Origin: Candidatus Hydrogenedentota bacterium
Lineage (GTDB): Bacteria > Hydrogenedentota > Hydrogenedentia > Hydrogenedentales > JAEUWI01
DNA length: 64,000 bases
NCBI GenBank assembly: GCA_019637335.1
Contig: JAHBVV010000002.1
Location: 186,001 to 250,000, forward strand
Direction: 5' to 3'
The notes under the pieces were generated by a model that saw only the letters and a list, made by a program, of their open reading frames with translations, was not told the origin of the DNA and searched no databases. Below, piece after piece: positions 1,269 to 39,780 of this stretch. The position numbers and the translations under genes were made by a program. Positions within the stretch are counted from its first letter, which is position 1, and each line of letters opens with the position of its first letter.

Positions 1269-4200
1269 ATGATTGCTCGTATCTGCACCGCAACCGCCGC
1301 CTTGGCCCTGCTCGCGGCAACCGCACCACCAAACCCGGCAAGCGCCAGCGAAACCTACGCCCGCGAAATCGCACCCATCTTCGCCCGCGCCTGTGTCTCC
1401 TGCCACGGGCCCGAGCAACAAAAAGCCGGCCTCCGGCTCGACAGCCCAGCCGCCCTCGCCATCGGTGGCGACAGCGGGCCACCCCTCAGAGCGGGCGACC
1501 CCGCCGGCAGCCTCCTCTACCAGGCCGTCGCAGGGCTCCACGAAAGCCTCGCCATGCCCCCCAAGGGCGACCCCCTCACCACGGAAGACCTCGCCGCCAT
1601 CCAGCGATGGATCGAGGCCGGCGCCCAGCTGCCGGAAGAGGAGGGGGGGAGGCCCGCCGTACAGTCCGACCACTGGTCGTTCCAGCCCGTAACCCGCCCC
1701 GAAATACCCGAAACCACCGTCGGCTGGGGGGATAGCCCCATCGACGCCTTCATCCTCAAGCGCCTCGAAGCCGCCGGCGTCGCCCCAAGCCCCCAGGCTG
1801 ATCCGAAAACCCTCGTCCGCCGCCTCTACCTCGATCTCGTCGGGCTCCCCCCCGATCCCCAGGTGGCCGACGCCTTCGCCGAAAACCCGGCCCCCGCAGC
1901 CTACGAAAAACTCGTCGACTCCCTCCTCGCCTCGCCCCATTTCGGCGAGCGATGGGGCCGCCACTGGCTCGATCTCGCACGCTACGCCGACAGCGACGGC
2001 TACGAAAAGGACAGCCCCCGCCCCTACGCCTGGCGCTACCGCGACTGGGTCATCAATGCCATCAACGAAGACCTCCCCTACGACCAGTTCGTCATTCACC
2101 AGCTCGCCGGCGATCTCCTCCCCGGAGCCACCCTAGCGCAACGCGCCGCCACCGGCTTCCACCGCAACACCCTCACCAACCGCGAAGGCGGCATCGACCC
2201 CGAAGAGGATCGCGTCAAGCAGGCCGTCGACCGAACCAACACCACCGGCGCGGTCTTCATGGGCCTCACCATGGCCTGCGCCCAATGCCACACCCACAAG
2301 TACGACCCCATCACCCAGCGCGAATACTTCGGCATGTACGCCTTCTTCGACGCCGCCATGGAGGAGAACATCCCCGCGCCGCTGCCGGGCGAGGAAGAGG
2401 CCCACGCCGCCGCCGTCGCGGATCATGAAGCCAAAGTCGCCGCAAAACAGGCCGAACTCGACGCCTACCGCCCCAGCCTCCTCGGCGGCCTCGCCGAATG
2501 GGAAGCCGCCATTGCCGTGCCAGAGGATGGCTGGAACATCCAGGACCCCGTCACCTTCAGCTCGATCGGCGGAGCCGCCCTCGAAGAACTAGACGACCGC
2601 TCCATTCTCGCTAGCGGAGAAAACGGCGTCACCGATACCTACACGGTCGTCCTTCGCTCCGGGGATATCGGCGTCCGCGGCCTCCGCCTCGAAGTCCTCA
2701 CGCACAATTCCCTCACCTTCAATGGCCCGGGAAGAGCGCACAACGGCAACTTCGTGCTTTCGGAAATTACCGTCAACGCCGCGCCCGCCGGACGCCCCCA
2801 CAGCACCGAAAACATCAAAATCGCGCGGGCAAAAGCCACCTTCGAACAGGAGGGTTACCCCATCGAAGCCGCCTTCGACGGCGATCCCGTCACCGGCTGG
2901 GCCATCCTCGACGGGCGCAACACCAACCAGAACCGCTCCGCCGAATTCACCTTCGAATCGCCCGCCGGATTCGACCGCGGAACCATCTTTACCATCACCC
3001 TCGACCAGCGCTACGGCGAGATGTACAACCTCGGCCGCTTCCGGATCGCCCTCACCACCAACGACCCCGAAAACATCCTCTACCCGGACGATGTCGTCGC
3101 CGCGCTCCAGACCCCCGCCGCCGACCGAAGCGCCGAACAGATCAAAACCCTCCTCGACTACCACGGCCAGAACGACGAAACCTACGTCAAACCCGCAGGC
3201 GAATTGCGCGACCTCCAGAACAATCCGCCCAAGCCGATCCCCTCCATCGTCATGGCCATCGCCCGGAATCCCAATCCGCCCGTCACCCGCGTCCACAACC
3301 GCGGCGACTTCCTCCAGCCCGGCGCCGTCGTCGGGCCGCACACCCCCGCCGTGCTCCACCCGCTTCAGCCCCGCGGGGAATCGCCAGACCGCCTCGACCT
3401 CGCACGCTGGATCGTGGACCCCGCCAACCCGCTCACCGCGCGCGTCGCCGTAAACCGCGTCTGGGAGCACCTCTTCGGCGACGGGCTCGCCCGCACCAGC
3501 GAAGACTTCGGCACACGCACCGAAGACCCCACCCACCCCGAACTGCTCGACTGGCTCGCCGCAAGCTTCATTGAGGATCACCACTGGAGCCGGAAATCCC
3601 TCATCAAGGCCATCGTCATGTCCGCAGCCTACCGGCAGTCCTCCCACATCCGCGAAGACCTCTTCGACCGCGATCCGGCCAACCGCCTCATCGCGCGCCA
3701 GAACCGGTTCCGCGTCGAAGCCGAAATCACCCGCGATCTCTTCCTCGCCGCCAGCGGCCTCCTGGTCGACGATATCGGCGGCCCCAGCGTCCGCCCGCCC
3801 CTTCCCGAGGGCGTCGCCAATCTCGGCTACGCCAACTCCGTCAAGTGGCCCGAAAGCGAAGGCCCCGACAAATACCGCCGCGGCCTCTACATATTCTTCC
3901 AGCGCACCGTTGCCTATCCCATGCTCGTGGCCTTCGACTGCCCCGACTCCAATGAAGCCAAGTTGAGCCGCAACCGCTCCAACACGCCCCTCCAGGCCCT
4001 CACGCTCCTCAACGACCCCGTCTTCGTCGAGGCGGCCCAGGCCCTCGGAACGCGCCTGCTCGAACTGCCCGCCGGAACCGGCCCCGAACGCGCCCGCGAG
4101 GCCTTCCGCCTCTGCATGGGCCGCGATCCCATCGACCGCGAGCTCGATCTGCTCGTCAAGCTCATCGCCGAACAGGAAGCCCTCTTCAAGCAGTACCCCG

Positions 4201-4322
4201 AAGAAGCCAAAACGCTGCTCGGCGACTATCTCCCCGAAAACATGCCGCCCGAAAAAGCCGCCGCACACATGATCCTCGCGCGCTCCATCATGAACCTCGA
4301 CGAATTCCTCACAAGAGAATAA
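1269..4322 (+). CDS. PSD1-type secreted cytochrome c protein (PSCyt1-DUF1549-DUF1553)
   Basis: The frame opens at a GTG at 1242, but the ATG at 1269 puts a normal signal peptide (hydrophobic residues about 5-25) at the N-terminus, so 1269 is preferred (1017 aa). A class I heme motif CVSCH lies at residues 42-46, followed by the PSCyt1 region. A DUF1549 (PSCyt2) block includes a second cysteine-histidine cluster CAQCHTHK near residue 345. A central beta-rich, discoidin-like stretch and a C-terminal DUF1553 block (about 690-1000, with NRVWEHLFG) complete the layout. The family is abundant in Planctomycetes and relatives and usually sits directly upstream of a DUF1501 gene, as here. The biochemical role is unproven; periplasmic redox or polysaccharide-related work is usually suggested. 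The family call is secure, the function is not. Confidence 0.93.
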
Positions 4323-4447
4323 GTCCCATGCAAGCCAGTCTACCGCCCGCAACCCCGAAGTTTCCCGGAGCCCCCGAGTTCCCAGGCTTCCTGAAGTCCC
4401 TCAGGTCCCTGCCGTCCCCCCGTCCACCAAGGCCGAGGTAATCCGCC
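4323..4447. repeat. Degenerate CCC-rich short repeat between the PSD1 and DUF1501 genes
   Basis: The spacer from about 4360 to 4435 is built of loosely repeated 9-10 bp words such as GAGTTCCCAGG and GAAGTCCCTCAGG. Similar words recur just after the DUF1501 gene (5928-5965, GGGACTCGGGCATTCC). No gene is visible. It may be a degenerate intergenic repeat within the operon. Confidence 0.4.
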
Positions 4448-5923
4448 ATGCACCCCATCCAAGAACAGCTCCTGCGCACCCGCCGCCAGTTCCTCACCAC
4501 CGCCGCCGGCGGCATCGGAGGCCTCGCCCTCACCGCACTCCTCGGGCGCGAGGCCGGCGCGAAAATTCCCGGCGTCAACCCCCTCGCGCCACGCCCCAAC
4601 CACATCACGCCCAAAGCAAAAGCCTGCATTTTCATCTTCATGGAAGGCGGCCCCAGCCAGATGGATCTCTTCGATCCAAAACCCATGCTCAACAAGCTCA
4701 ACGGCCAGCCACTGCCCGAATCCCTCACAAAAGACATGCGCTTCGCCTTCATCCAGAAGGAAACCGCCACCGTCCTCGGCAGCAACCAGCAATTCAAAAA
4801 ATTCGGCCAATCCGGCATGGATTTCTCCACCTGGCTCCCCAATATCGGCAGCTGCGCCGACGATATCTGCATGATCCGCTCCATGCACACCGAAGCCTTT
4901 AACCACCACCCCGGCCAGCTCATGATGAACTCCGGCGTCCCCACCTTCGGACGCCCCTCCATGGGCGCCTGGATTAACTACGGCCTCGGTACCGATGCCG
5001 ACAACCTCCCCGGCTACGTCGTGCTCACCGCCGGACGCGGCACCTCCGGCGGCGTCTCCAACTGGACCAGCGGATTCCTCCCCTCCAACTACCAGGGCGT
5101 CCTCTTCCGCAACGAGGGCGAGCCCGTACTGCACCTCGCCAACCCCGCCGGCATGCCCCACGAATGCCAGCGCCTCGGCCTCGACACCGTCCGCGACCTC
5201 AACCAGATCCACTACGAGGAAACCCGCGACCCCGAGATCCTCGCCCGCATCTCCTCCTACGAACTCGCCTACCGCATGCAGGCCGCCGCGCCCGAACTCA
5301 TCGACCTCTCCGGCGAGTCCCAGGCCACCCTCGATATGTACGGCGTCGACCGCTCCGAATCCGGCTACAAAGCCTCCCGCGCCGGCGGTCCCGGCACCTT
5401 CACCGCCTTCTCCCGAAACTGCCTCCTCGCCCGCAGGCTCGTCGAGCGCGGCGTGCGCTTCATCAATATCTACCACGCCAGCTGGGACCACCACAGCGAC
5501 CTCGACAACGAGATGGAATACACCACCGCAATGTGCGACCAGCCCATCGCCGCCCTTATCAAAGACCTCAAACAGCGCGGCCTGCTCGACGAAACCCTCG
5601 TTATCTTCGGCTCCGAATTCGGCCGCACCCCCCTCGGAGAGAACCGCGCCGGTTTCCGCGAAGCCAACACCGGCCGCGACCATCACCCCATGGCCTTCAC
5701 CATCTGGATGGCCGGCGGCGGGACCAAAGGCGGAACCATCATCGGCGAAACCGACGACATCGGCTGGAACATCGTCAAGGACCCCGTCCACATCAACGAC
5801 CTCCACGCCACCATACTCCACCTCTTCGGCCTCAACCACCTCGACCTCACCTACCGCTACAGCGGACGCGACTTCCGCCTCACCGATGTCGCCGGAAAAC
5901 TCGTCCCCCAAATCTACACCTGA
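4448..5923 (+). CDS. DUF1501 family protein, Tat-exported
   Basis: This 491-residue protein starts at ATG 4448. The N-terminus carries a twin-arginine motif (RRQFLTT, residues about 12-18) followed by a Gly/Ala-rich hydrophobic stretch, so export of a folded protein through Tat is likely. The body has the sulfatase/alkaline-phosphatase-like fold expected of DUF1501. Typical family segments are visible, including FMEGGPSQMD near residue 65, HHPGQLMMNSG near 155 and FGSEFGRTP near 390. It follows the PSD1 cytochrome gene by 125 bp on the same strand. That pairing is the standard arrangement in Planctomycetes-like genomes and suggests a shared extracytoplasmic function. The enzymatic activity is unknown. 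The family assignment is confident. Confidence 0.92.
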   Translation: MHPIQEQLLRTRRQFLTTAAGGIGGLALTALLGREAGAKIPGVNPLAPRPNHITPKAKACIFIFMEGGPSQMDLFDPKPMLNKLNGQPLPESLTKDMRFAFIQKETATVLGSNQQFKKFGQSGMDFSTWLPNIGSCADDICMIRSMHTEAFNHHPGQLMMNSGVPTFGRPSMGAWINYGLGTDADNLPGYVVLTAGRGTSGGVSNWTSGFLPSNYQGVLFRNEGEPVLHLANPAGMPHECQRLGLDTVRDLNQIHYEETRDPEILARISSYELAYRMQAAAPELIDLSGESQATLDMYGVDRSESGYKASRAGGPGTFTAFSRNCLLARRLVERGVRFINIYHASWDHHSDLDNEMEYTTAMCDQPIAALIKDLKQRGLLDETLVIFGSEFGRTPLGENRAGFREANTGRDHHPMAFTIWMAGGGTKGGTIIGETDDIGWNIVKDPVHINDLHATILHLFGLNHLDLTYRYSGRDFRLTDVAGKLVPQIYT

Positions 5924-24997: not shown

Positions 24998-25786
24998 TCA
25001 GTACGCCGCACAGGTGGCGTACAGGCGCTCCACGGCGCTTGCGTCCTCGATGAACCGGCACGCGCGCGGGCGCCCATGCTCATAATAGCGCCCGGTGGAT
25101 TCCAGCCCCGCCGGATCCGTGGCCAGCCACACCGGGGTCGCCGCGCCCTCGTCCGGGGATTCGTGGCCGCCGAACCCGAGGTTGTTGCTCAGCGCCGAAT
25201 TGACATCGCCCGGGTGGCAGGCGTTCACCACGATGTTGTGGGGCCGCAGCCGCGCCGCGTGCGCCGCCGTCAGCATCCGGTTCGCCTGCTTGGACTGCCG
25301 GTAGGCCGCGTCGTTGTCGTAGGGCCGCCGCCGGAATTCCAGGTCGTCCAGGTCCAGGCCGCCCGCCCAATAGCTCGCCACGTTCACCACCCGCGACGGC
25401 GCGCCCGCCGCCAGCGCCGCCGTGAACGCCTCGATCATCCAGAAATAACCGAGCACATTCGTCGCGAATTGAAGCTCAATGCCCTCCGGCGTTTCCTCCC
25501 GGCGCCGCGGGGTGGCGGCGGCGTTGTTCACCAGCACATGCAGCGGCCCCGTCCAGCGCGCCGCGAACGCCTCCACCGACGCCTTCCGCGAAACGTCCAC
25601 CAACTCAAATCGCACCGCCTCGTTGCCGGTCGCCTCCTGAATCTCCGCCACCGCCCGCTCCGCCTTCCGCGAATCGCGCGCGGCCAGCACCACCTCGAAA
25701 CCCGGCGTCGCCGCCAACTGGCGGGCGATCGCCTGGCCGATGGCGCCGGTAGCGCCCGTAACGATGGCGATTTGCTTATCCGTCAT
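24998..25786 (-). CDS. SDR-family oxidoreductase (retinol-dehydrogenase-like)
   Basis: ATG at 25786 gives 262 residues; the frame upstream of it is not needed. The Rossmann motif TGATGAIG is at 10-17, NNAA at 87-90, the catalytic serine fits S138 in NVASYW, and Y162/K166 form the YxxxK pair (AAYRQSKQ). These are the hallmarks of a classical or extended short-chain dehydrogenase using NAD(P). The substrate cannot be predicted. The closest general pattern is the WW-domain/retinol dehydrogenase subgroup. It is convergent with the FkbM gene (28 bp between stops) and is the last GC-rich gene before the AT-richer island at 25.8-28.2 kb. Confidence 0.93.
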   Translation of the reverse strand: MTDKQIAIVTGATGAIGQAIARQLAATPGFEVVLAARDSRKAERAVAEIQEATGNEAVRFELVDVSRKASVEAFAARWTGPLHVLVNNAAATPRRREETPEGIELQFATNVLGYFWMIEAFTAALAAGAPSRVVNVASYWAGGLDLDDLEFRRRPYDNDAAYRQSKQANRMLTAAHAARLRPHNIVVNACHPGDVNSALSNNLGFGGHESPDEGAATPVWLATDPAGLESTGRYYEHGRPRACRFIEDASAVERLYATCAAY

Positions 25787-26062
25787 GGTTGCGCCCTTTC
25801 CCTTCGAGCGAACGGGACCGCTCATCCTTGATTCCTTCGGCACGCAGCCACCGTGGCTCCGTCCACCATCGAATCACGGCTTGGGGATATCTACCCTTTC
25901 GGCAAAAACCGACAATAACAATCGAGCGAACAAGGGGTGACCAATTGCATGGCATATAAGACTGAAGTCGGTAAAGTGTTTTATTATAACAACTTACAGT
26001 ATTCTTAGAGCGTCAGCAGGAGCATTCGTCTCATCAAGTGACACAAAAGGGTGTCCACTGAG

Positions 26063-26308
26063 CTAAGCCCAATAGGGCACGTATCTCATGTGTTTCTTGC
26101 CAGCACTCTCGTCGTAGAGTTTCACCAGACCTTCCTCGATTGTCTGGCGTATGATTCGGGAAGCGGCCCCGCGATTCTTGGGTCCAATGCCCAGGCGCTT
26201 TCGCAGGCTGGGCCGCACGCCAGAGTGCTGGAGAGGAGAGTCAACCGATCCAATCTTAGAATGCAACTTGGCGCCGTTCATTGGGGCACCGGTGAGGTTC
26301 GGTTTCAT
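26063..26308 (-). pseudogene. Possible C-terminal remnant of an AlbA_2/RecG-like ATP-binding regulator
   Basis: Reading from about 26308 to the stop at 26063, the frame encodes roughly 80 residues. It ends with a helix-rich segment SRIIRQTIEEGLVKLYDE and the tail MRYVPYWA. Similar tails (a small winged helix followed by YVPxWA) are, from memory, typical of AlbA_2/Schlafen-like putative transcriptional regulators. No N-terminal domain is present upstream, where the cassette gene ends at 26361. I read this as a leftover 3' end of a deleted gene. It could instead be a small independent ORF starting at ATG 26308 or 26281. Confidence 0.35.
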
Positions 26309-26360
26309 GCGGAATTCCGCAGGTCGCGAAACAGCGGCATAGCGAGAATAAGTCGAATTA

Positions 26361-27236
26361 TTACTGCTTCGTCGACTTCTTGAAAGCCGCGTCCGCCGCC
26401 AGCTTCCGGCACACCTCCTCCGCAACCTCTTCACCGCTCTTCCCTGACAACACCACGCGTCTCATGACTTCTCTGACACTACTCAGGATTTGTTCCTGCC
26501 TGGTAGGGATGTGAATATTGCGAATGTATTCGGCCAGCGCGGTTTTCTCGGTTGGGATTGTTTCACCAGTTTTTCGCGCCTGTTCGGCTGCCTTTAGCCG
26601 ATCATGTTTTTCCCAGCCACAGGCACCCGTCAGTATGGTTTCGATTACTTCATCTGCGTCCTCCTCCGGCCAGTCTTGAGTTGCAACTCGACCATAAATA
26701 CTTCCGACCAGCCACCCGAGTTTGGCTCGAAACTCTTCATTAAGCGCGAGGACGCGGGCCGCAACAATTCTATCATAGTACGGCTCGGTAGGAACCACCA
26801 CCTGCCTGCGCAATAGGGCACAAAGCGGCTTCTCAAGGCTAAACTGATGTTCTTCGTGGAAATAGAAGTACTGGGGCTCATTGTTGTTTAGCAGCTTCTT
26901 GAGAAAACCGGCGTGCTTATCTTTGTGGTTTATTCCGCATATGCCAGCACGTTTGGAAACCTCAAGGGTCTGAGTTTTGGAGATTCTCTCTCCAATTATT
27001 TCACTCAACGAAATCGCTGGAACTAATGCTATATGATCTGCCTTTATACGCTGCTTGACCATGTCGCAACTCTGGGTCACAACAATAATATACTCTACAT
27101 TGGGAGGGAGGGTGGAAAGTTCTGCAATGACGCCGGACTGCTCCAATTCTTTTCGCTCAATTAAATCTCCCTGCTGGAGATCTCCGTTAGGCGCAGCATA
27201 CGTGAAGTGGATAGGATTTGGTCGATTAGCATCCAT
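26361..27236 (-). CDS. Uncharacterised protein with a TQSCDM motif (third gene of an accessory cassette)
   Basis: The protein has 291 residues and no signal peptide or membrane segment. I do not recognise a named family. A distinctive segment, YIIVVTQSCDMVKQ, lies near residues 49-62, with a second cysteine segment AGICGINHKDKH near 97-108. Together these could form a metal site, but that is inference. The C-terminal third is helical and charged. The gene lies in DNA that is clearly AT-richer than the flanking SDR and ileS genes and uses more A/T-ending codons, which suggests horizontal acquisition. It follows the 87-residue gene by 27 bp and is probably co-transcribed with it and with the 219-residue gene. 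Confidence 0.75.
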   Translation of the reverse strand: MDANRPNPIHFTYAAPNGDLQQGDLIERKELEQSGVIAELSTLPPNVEYIIVVTQSCDMVKQRIKADHIALVPAISLSEIIGERISKTQTLEVSKRAGICGINHKDKHAGFLKKLLNNNEPQYFYFHEEHQFSLEKPLCALLRRQVVVPTEPYYDRIVAARVLALNEEFRAKLGWLVGSIYGRVATQDWPEEDADEVIETILTGACGWEKHDRLKAAEQARKTGETIPTEKTALAEYIRNIHIPTRQEQILSSVREVMRRVVLSGKSGEEVAEEVCRKLAADAAFKKSTKQ

Positions 27237-27263
27237 TGGTGCGCCACCCAGAACGAAAGCCCC

Positions 27264-27527
27264 TTAGAAATCTGTAGTAGTTTCGGTTTCTGGTACGCCC
27301 AAATTGTAGAGCCGATTCAGAATACGTATGCGTTCGTATTGAACATCGTATCGGACCTGCAAATCGATTGCTGCATCAGCCCGGATCACAATTTCTCTAT
27401 CCGGCAAGTTATCTCCATTTCCCTTGCCAGACTTGGCGCGCACATCCGGGTGAACTTCATCGACCTCCTTGTAATCATCAACGTATACCTCGTTAGAGGT
27501 GCCATTTGCTGGGATCGTACTAGTCAT
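27264..27527 (-). CDS. Small uncharacterised protein (second gene of accessory cassette)
   Basis: The start at ATG 27527 gives 87 residues and overlaps the stop of the upstream 219-residue gene by 8 nt, which suggests translational coupling. The protein is acidic, with a probably disordered N-terminal half (TSNEVYVDDYKEVDEV) and a short helical C-terminal region (VRYDVQYERIRILNRLYNLG). A longer start at 27554 is possible. No family is recognised. Size and position would suit an adaptor or antitoxin-like partner of the flanking larger proteins, but nothing in the sequence proves this. Confidence 0.6.
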   Translation of the reverse strand: MTSTIPANGTSNEVYVDDYKEVDEVHPDVRAKSGKGNGDNLPDREIVIRADAAIDLQVRYDVQYERIRILNRLYNLGVPETETTTDF

Positions 27528-28179
27528 CGTTGAAATCCTCCAAGTCCAGTTCAAAGTTGTAGACTTTCTTCAATAATTCGAGTCCTTTCTCGTATCGCGA
27601 GATTATCGATCCGGACAGCTTTTCCTTCAATTCGTCAGGGCGGTCATTTGCTGATATGGACCGGTGAAAGTTCATATCAATATCTACCTTGACGTCCTCG
27701 ATCAAGGCCAGCGTGAGATTGAGAATTGTCTGGTCGTCAATTTTTATTTTTCGAAAAATTTTCCTGTCTAAAGTCTCGCAATCGAACTTACTATACTTCT
27801 CATAGTCGTCGGCATTGAAGAGGCTGTGATCAAAACCTCCACTCGAATCATCAAGGAAATGGAAATTGACCCCATAGCCTGTTACCGGTGTGTGGGGAAG
27901 TGTTTCGAGTGTCTTTAGAGCGACATCTTCGAGAATCTTTAAGTCCTCCTCGTTGCCGGCCGCGGGATGAAACACGATGCGATCTTGAGCGGGGACGAGA
28001 GTGAAGCGCTCCGTTATCATCCGAAGTCGAACAGGGAATCCCCTGCTGAATCCGACTTGGATCTTGATATCGCTTTCATCTTTTTCGATTAAATTCTTTG
28101 CAACCCACTCCGCACTGAAAATGTGAGGATTCCACTGGCCCGTTATGACTATCGACCACTGCTCGGTCATTGCCTTCAT
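27520..28179 (-). CDS. Uncharacterised protein (first gene of accessory cassette)
   Basis: The protein has 219 residues (an alternative start lies at ATG 28170) and appears soluble. The central segment HTPVTGYGVNFHF (near residues 94-106), preceded by a beta-rich part with VRLRMITERFTLVPAQDR, recalls an unnamed family of about 220 residues with a TPVxxxGxN pattern. This is from memory and unverified. The C-terminal part is helical and acidic, ending YNFELDLEDFNDD. It is the first gene of the presumed three-gene operon and begins about 90 bp after the ileS stop on the same strand, with no terminator seen between. Its codon use is AT-rich compared with ileS. Function unknown. Confidence 0.72.
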   Translation of the reverse strand: MKAMTEQWSIVITGQWNPHIFSAEWVAKNLIEKDESDIKIQVGFSRGFPVRLRMITERFTLVPAQDRIVFHPAAGNEEDLKILEDVALKTLETLPHTPVTGYGVNFHFLDDSSGGFDHSLFNADDYEKYSKFDCETLDRKIFRKIKIDDQTILNLTLALIEDVKVDIDMNFHRSISANDRPDELKEKLSGSIISRYEKGLELLKKVYNFELDLEDFNDD

Positions 28180-28272: not shown

Positions 28273-31656
<3,384 letters not shown>

Positions 31657-32045
31657 GAGAAATGCTTTCCTGGCTGAAATCTTGTGGTATCGCCGCGCGG
31701 CGGCAACCGAAAGGCCACCGGTGGAAATCCACTGGCGCCTGGCGTTCGCGCGGATGGTGGCGGGGCCGCAACACGCTCCCCGCCATCACTCCGCCCGAAG
31801 TCCCGCGGGCGGCGGCCATTATTGCTAAATCAAATCGGCATGCACACTTCCAGACGATTTAAGAAGGATTTCGCGGCACGCGAAAGGAAATAGCATGGAA
31901 AAACACGCCGGGCTGAATATGATCGCCTTTTGGTGCGGGGGGGTGCAAGTTTTGGGCGGCGGACGGTCAGCGCAAGCGCCACGAATTCAAGGCGCAACCG
32001 ATAGGGGACGGGAGGATGTGAAGCAGGAATTGGCACAGGGCGGCC
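31657..32045. other. Intergenic region upstream of ileS, no gene seen
   Basis: This is the ileS 5' region and the first part of a 1.65-kb gene-free stretch. No riboswitch, tRNA or protein-coding frame can be supported. Open frames here are short and compositionally random. Confidence 0.4.
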
Positions 32046-32049
32046 CTCG

Positions 32050-32297
32050 CCGCAACCAAAGAAATGATCACCACGAAGGGCACGAAGACCACGAAGGAAG
32101 GAAGTCTCTTGAGGGGGAATTCTCCGTGCCAAAGTGTAAGGCGGCGATCCGGGTCGGGGTGCGAGATCGATGCGCGTGGCGGATCGGATTGGGAGCCACA
32201 AAGAGCACAAAGAACACAAAGAACCCAGCGCAACCTTGGGCCGCAACCGAAGAAATGATCACCACGAAGGGCACGAAGATCACGAAGGAAAGAAGTT
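32050..32297. repeat. Direct repeats with CACGAAG/CACAAAGA words
   Basis: Two near-identical copies of about 55 bp begin CCGCAACC at 32050 and 32241. Each contains GATCACCACGAAGGGCACGA followed by more CACGAAG words. Between them lies a run of CACAAAGA-type words (about 32198-32222). No coding sense; probably intergenic tandem slippage products. Confidence 0.75.
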
Positions 32298-32530
32298 GGA
32301 GAAGGAGTAACACTTTAGCGGAATGAAGCACCCACCGCCTTGGAGACGAATCTGGGTCATGACGGGCGTGAGTAGCAGGATCGTGGACATTCTTGTCCGC
32401 GGCAGGATGGGCGCACGACATCTCGTGATCGATGTATACGTAAAGAGGCGCGGGTCCCCAATGCTCTCGGTCCTGGGGACGCCGGGATTCTATTCCAGAC
32501 CACTCACGTCGCTTTATTTCCCGATCTCCC

Positions 32531-35610: not shown

Positions 35611-39780
<4,170 letters not shown>

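Follow-up and report, generated by a model that had tools for sequence, protein, structure and literature searches.

Among the described antiphage systems, those closest to the locus reported here are Canu (CanABC), which has a three-gene sensor-effector layout, and the pairs of an MBL nuclease and a protease present in Hachiman, Avs, Lamassu and DRT (PMC12799240). The MBL hydrolases used by antiphage systems are similar to nucleases of DNA uptake, and for one of them potent DNase activity upon activation was demonstrated (PMC12799240). A sensor combined with a toxic effector in a mobile defence cassette is in this sense a known kind of arrangement.

We analyzed 64 kb of DNA from a Hydrogenedentota bacterium (this whole stretch is referred to as the window), which carries three genes designated here as A, b' and C'. 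Homologues of A also stand first in a sister cassette, A-B-MBL (type I), and the window holds type II (A, small gene, C'), the rarer of the two types. The MBL hydrolase of type I is related to those of Canu and of the MBL pairs named above, and the three-gene layout is shared with Canu. However, no caspase or trypsin gene was recognised in the A cassettes seen, and type II possesses no MBL. We found no published account or name of an A-containing cassette in the open-access literature, and Pfam, PADLOC, NCBIfam and PHROGs contain no models for A, B, b' or C'. Both the family and the two-type architecture appear to be new.

The cassette and its site beside ileS

The cassette lies between genes that we named ileS and SDR-like by reading of the sequence. 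The features of this region of the window are:

28273-31656, minus strand: ileS (reading frame, homologues found in six related genomes), bordering the variable region on its near side
27520-28179, minus strand: gene A, 219 aa (reading frame, alignments, model, tree)
27264-27527, minus strand: gene b', 87 aa from ATG (reading frame, junction, position shared with five other loci)
26361-27236, minus strand: gene C', 291 aa, with the segment VVTQSCDM (reading frame, homologues in five loci, alignment, fold match)
26063-26330 (approximately), minus strand: gene fragment, read as an AlbA_2-type C-terminus, far edge of the variable region
24998-25843, flanking the cassette: SDR-like gene (reading frame, named by reading)

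In agreement with the preliminary description, three tightly packed genes (219, 87 and 291 aa) are found on the same strand between ileS and the SDR gene. The stop of A and the start of b' overlap by 8 bases (ATGACTAG), and b' and C' are separated by a gap of 27 bases; both junctions look like those of one operon. If an upstream TTG start is used, b' has 96 aa rather than 87. Scans for promoters and terminators at the cassette gave no signal above shuffles. The DNA had also been described as AT-richer than its flanks and foreign, a claim that would have fallen if GC and codon use did not differ from the surroundings. They do differ: the GC content of the cassette is 0.483 as compared with 0.651 for the whole 64 kb window, which served as the base of comparison, and the lowest value of any equal-length stretch elsewhere in the window is 0.583 (z of the cassette, -6.4). 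Furthermore, GC3 of the cassette genes is 0.47-0.56, whereas the other genes have a mean of 0.78. That the three proteins belong to no recognised family was likewise borne out, as A, b' and C' had no match beyond noise in Pfam, PADLOC, NCBIfam or PHROGs.

In G037, another genome from the genus of the window, a different AT-rich cargo (L087 581-3100, on G037:C620) is located 3' of ileS. It consists of two HNH-like genes, a gene for a 142-aa protein and a gene for a small nucleotidyltransferase-like protein, the names all resting on a reading of the sequence. Like the variable region of the window, this cargo ends at a fragment of the AlbA_2-type gene. No AT-rich cargo is present beside ileS in G035, G034 and G038. 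This side of ileS is therefore a site of variable cargo in the genus. The fragment, previously noted as a possible AlbA_2-like remnant, does derive from a real gene: nine other genomes of the phylum contain frames, mostly of 470-540 residues, whose C-termini share 41-52% identity with its end. The AlbA_2 part of the claim is on weaker ground, because the designation of these frames as AlbA_2 regulators is a reading of the sequence without a tested match. No convincing direct repeats marking an insertion were found at the cassette.

Two other features of the window may be recorded here. At 39000-39499, the local GC skew is 0.57 and the AT skew 0.32 (very strong), the strand being purine-rich as compared with its surroundings. 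At 31890-32330, several reading frames show repetition of short motifs (TTKGTKTTK, HEGHEDHEG), as would result from a short DNA repeat between genes.

Distribution and genomic context of the two cassette types

Among 68 Hydrogenedentota genomes, C' is restricted to the window, and the A protein of the window has two distant homologues; an A gene is carried by G067:C17, which is from the same order as the window genome. It was only through the distant A homologues of the phylum that the type I cassette was reached. The A protein of the window matches other A proteins with phmmer E values from 2.6e-22 to about 1e-3, and the alignments reveal the conserved motifs NPxIF..W, HTP and GxN. A scan of 84,980 species genomes with the A alignment yielded 45 A loci, which come from about a dozen phyla. 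An MBL gene (whole or split) follows A in 41 of these 45 loci, and B was detected in 38 of the 41; of the remaining four, three have a C' homologue and one ends at the contig end. A search with the A profile in 399 genomes from the order to which the Ralstonia genome belongs retrieved two A loci. One is the type II locus already known; the other, not seen before, lacks the search motif and still has B and MBL (type I). Each readable A locus thus carries one of the two partner sets. Type I is present on an Adhaeribacter plasmid, a Pantoea plasmid and virus contigs as well. Direct tblastn matches were found neither for A and C' in plasmids nor for C' in phages, and scanning the virus contigs with a single C' sequence gave nothing.

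The third gene of type I is called here a ComEC-like MBL hydrolase. The type I MBL proteins match the PADLOC models RTasMBL and LmuA, in some cases PDC-M48B, and HxHxDH is kept in 45 of 46 of them. By likeness to the systems described in PMC12799240, a DNase function may be inferred for this protein. No system model of PADLOC-DB 2.0.0 matches A and B of type I, and only the MBL is partly covered. The two types share a homologous A in first position, three genes on the same strand, mobility and a location among defence genes. They differ in gene 2, which is B in type I and b' in the window (no sequence similarity between the two), and in gene 3, which encodes an MBL hydrolase in type I rather than a protein with the MazF fold. 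Genes 2 and 3 are, in other words, swapped together behind a common gene 1.

The order A-small gene-C' recurs in five other loci, which belong to Nitrospira (L015), Ralstonia (L016), Sphingopyxis (L018) and two virus contigs (L060 and L069), and is therefore not due to chance. Searches for C' in 399 Burkholderiales-, 296 Nitrospirota- and 298 Sphingomonadales-type genomes retrieved only the known loci and one receiver-fused domain. The small gene adjoins C' at every type II locus; its position is kept in the five other loci, and its sequence is poorly conserved (54-92 aa in the relatives). In the A tree, type II forms a single clade (support 100/99) that spans three phyla and two virus contigs; a single origin is recovered in 98% of the 200 bootstrap trees. 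Note that the branches of the tree are long, so the branching order within type II is uncertain. The GC content of the cassette is below that of its flanks in the window, Nitrospira, Ralstonia and Sphingopyxis. The conserved gene order is combined with a sporadic, mobile distribution.

The preliminary description had proposed a defence or stress island, to be judged by whether homologues of its genes occur together in unrelated genomes near known defence genes. Indeed, homologues of A and C' with a small gene between them are present in the five loci listed above, in unrelated hosts and virus contigs, and defence genes are found close to three of them. In L069, the HsdS-HsdR pair of a type I restriction system precedes the cassette, which begins 302 bases after it. 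In L060, a gene for an OLD-family nuclease is located nearby, together with portal- and terminase-like genes (named by reading). In L015 (Nitrospira sp.), TIR and pYEATS genes adjacent to each other (3556-4576) stand beside the cassette and a PIN-like reading frame on its other side, and this neighbourhood resembles a small defence island. The type II cassettes of the window, Ralstonia and Sphingopyxis are each located alone between housekeeping genes, outside any large defence island. We also tallied the matches (E below 1e-10) of 123 proteins flanking the cassettes. These include type I restriction enzyme and specificity subunits, a type II methylase, BrxHI (BREX), RT_UG29 (DRT reverse transcriptase), HEC-01A, HEC-01B, SngC, SoFic, HmaC, DUF499 and Old/AriA. 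In addition, five of the flanking proteins match phage integrase and two match resolvase. As the tally had no control set, the association with defence genes is a strong impression rather than a measured enrichment.

Predicted structures of A and C'

The predicted structure of A (pLDDT 85, a confident model) has a two-repeat alpha/beta arrangement. In the VIA comparison, TBP ranks first with a Z of 7.3, tied with guanidino kinases and AdoMetDC, and this is the Z range of common arrangements. A TBP-like saddle fold, with which the model shares the two-repeat arrangement, is therefore possible but not demonstrated for A, considering the low Z and the tie. AdoMetDC was the top match in Foldseek (E 1e-4), but with a TM-score of only 0.32, and because it is tied with TBP and guanidino kinases in VIA as well, we rejected this fold for A. 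A pattern in A that we took to be TIGR04255-like did not lead further: none of 49 A proteins matches the family model, and the hhalign probability is 1. Sequence searches of the PDB with the A and C' profiles gave noise. From the constancy of A across the cassettes, one might guess that it is the sensor or recognition part; this function is inferred.

The closest structural match to A is a viral protein of 202 aa without a known name (BFVD A0A515MGR4; TM-score 0.67/0.72, E 1.7e-10), which fits A better than any solved structure does.

The model of C' was built from six sequences and is of medium confidence (pLDDT 72). It contains a barrel at about residues 17-185 and a helical C-terminal part. 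The best Foldseek matches in the PDB are MazF toxins (probability 1.00, E 5e-3), and in VIA all 50 entries listed are MazF/CcdB/Kid toxins (best Z 8.7 over 110/114 residues). C' is thus predicted to have the SH3-like barrel fold of MazF and CcdB. In contrast to this likeness of residues 17-185 to MazF/PemK and CcdB toxins, there is no match at the sequence level: none of the six members matches Pfam, including PF02452 (PemK/MazF), and hhalign against 12 PemK proteins of the phylum found nothing. C' differs from these toxins furthermore in its extra helical C-terminus, in a set of conserved residues of its own, namely GD, T, CD and Cys (the constant positions of the alignment include G23-D24, T54, C57-D58, C139 and Y154) and in belonging to a three-gene set. 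When the alignment is inspected by eye, there is no invariant Arg at the MazF catalytic place, and Thr/Ser vary. The catalytic Arg and Thr of MazF hence appear not to be retained, as far as this can be judged without a residue-level structural alignment. The toxicity of C' and its target are inferred.

A domain related to C' makes up the C-terminal half of a protein with a receiver domain (L066, on G492:C29; hhalign probability 96, E 3.7e-9). A C'-type domain is in this way the output of two unrelated sensing modules, which fits an effector role.

The receiver protein is encoded at L066 2-2396, in the phylum of the Nitrospira locus, in a row consisting of a histidine-kinase-like gene, the gene for the receiver/C'-like protein and a Vsr nuclease gene. 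This row is possibly another undescribed defence-type set with a C'-like output domain.

Proposed function and alternative explanations

We consider it probable that the window carries the second type of a modular three-gene cassette for abortive infection or immunity that moves horizontally and has not been described. Its conservation, mobility and defence context are observed; its defence role and protection against phages are inferred without experiment. The same applies to the individual steps, although the swap of genes 2 and 3 after a common gene 1 is itself evident. A would detect a signal of infection, and this detection would release the effector, with the small middle protein (b' in the window) acting as a putative linker or brake between the two. 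The effector would then halt growth or kill the cell before the phage spreads. In type I this effector, the MBL, would cut DNA, and in type II C' may act as a MazF/CcdB-like toxin. Several points speak against this explanation. C' has no PemK/MazF sequence match, its model reaches a pLDDT of only 72, and the catalytic residues of MazF do not seem to be retained, judging from the alignment. Besides, type II stands alone in the window, Ralstonia and Sphingopyxis, and the neighbour tally is uncontrolled.

The MazF/CcdB-like fold of C' would also be expected if the cassette served to stabilise mobile elements as a toxin-antitoxin or addiction module. C' would then be the toxin and either b' or A its antitoxin, with phage defence being a side effect or missing altogether. 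A small gene that adjoins C' and overlaps A and the carriage of the cassette by virus contigs are compatible with such a module. However, toxin-antitoxin pairs do not need the conserved third gene, A is common to the MBL cassette, which is not of the toxin-antitoxin type, and there are defence genes among the neighbours. No likeness of b' to antitoxins was recognised with Pfam, PADLOC, NCBIfam and PHROGs. We regard an addiction module as rather unlikely. Another possibility is that C' is not a toxin at all and has a MazF-fold domain for binding or regulation, so that the cassette senses and signals without killing. The seeming absence of the MazF catalytic residues (from the alignment, by eye) and the fusion of a C'-like domain to a receiver domain agree with this idea, whereas the position of C' where type I has its nuclease and the strictly conserved GD and CD pairs, which fit an active site, do not; we find it quite unlikely.

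A mobile accessory operon outside defence, e.g., one for stress or nucleic-acid turnover, could account for the fact that type II stands by itself between housekeeping genes in Ralstonia, Sphingopyxis and the window, and there are no experimental data on function that would contradict it. Nevertheless, the type I hydrolase is of a kind used in tested defence systems, the neighbours include many defence and integrase genes, and the distribution is sporadic, with carriage on plasmids and virus contigs. This explanation therefore seems very improbable to us, and an immune cassette with C' as its effector remains our preferred reading.

A wider interpretation can be put forward only tentatively. 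It would see in these loci a widespread and as yet unnamed immune system of two types, in which one new sensor family A, possibly a bacterial TBP fold, swaps the whole effector half, i.e., a DNA-cutting MBL nuclease for a MazF-fold protein with a new Cys-Asp site. If this is true, an undescribed sensor-effector immune family would be distributed over about a dozen phyla of bacteria, an archaeal contig, plasmids and virus contigs, having been overlooked by the current libraries because its common protein A has no model. Among MazF-fold effectors, C' would stand for a new class, marked by conserved residues of its own. With a single sensor family serving two effectors, recognition of the signal would be separate from the way in which the cell responds to it.
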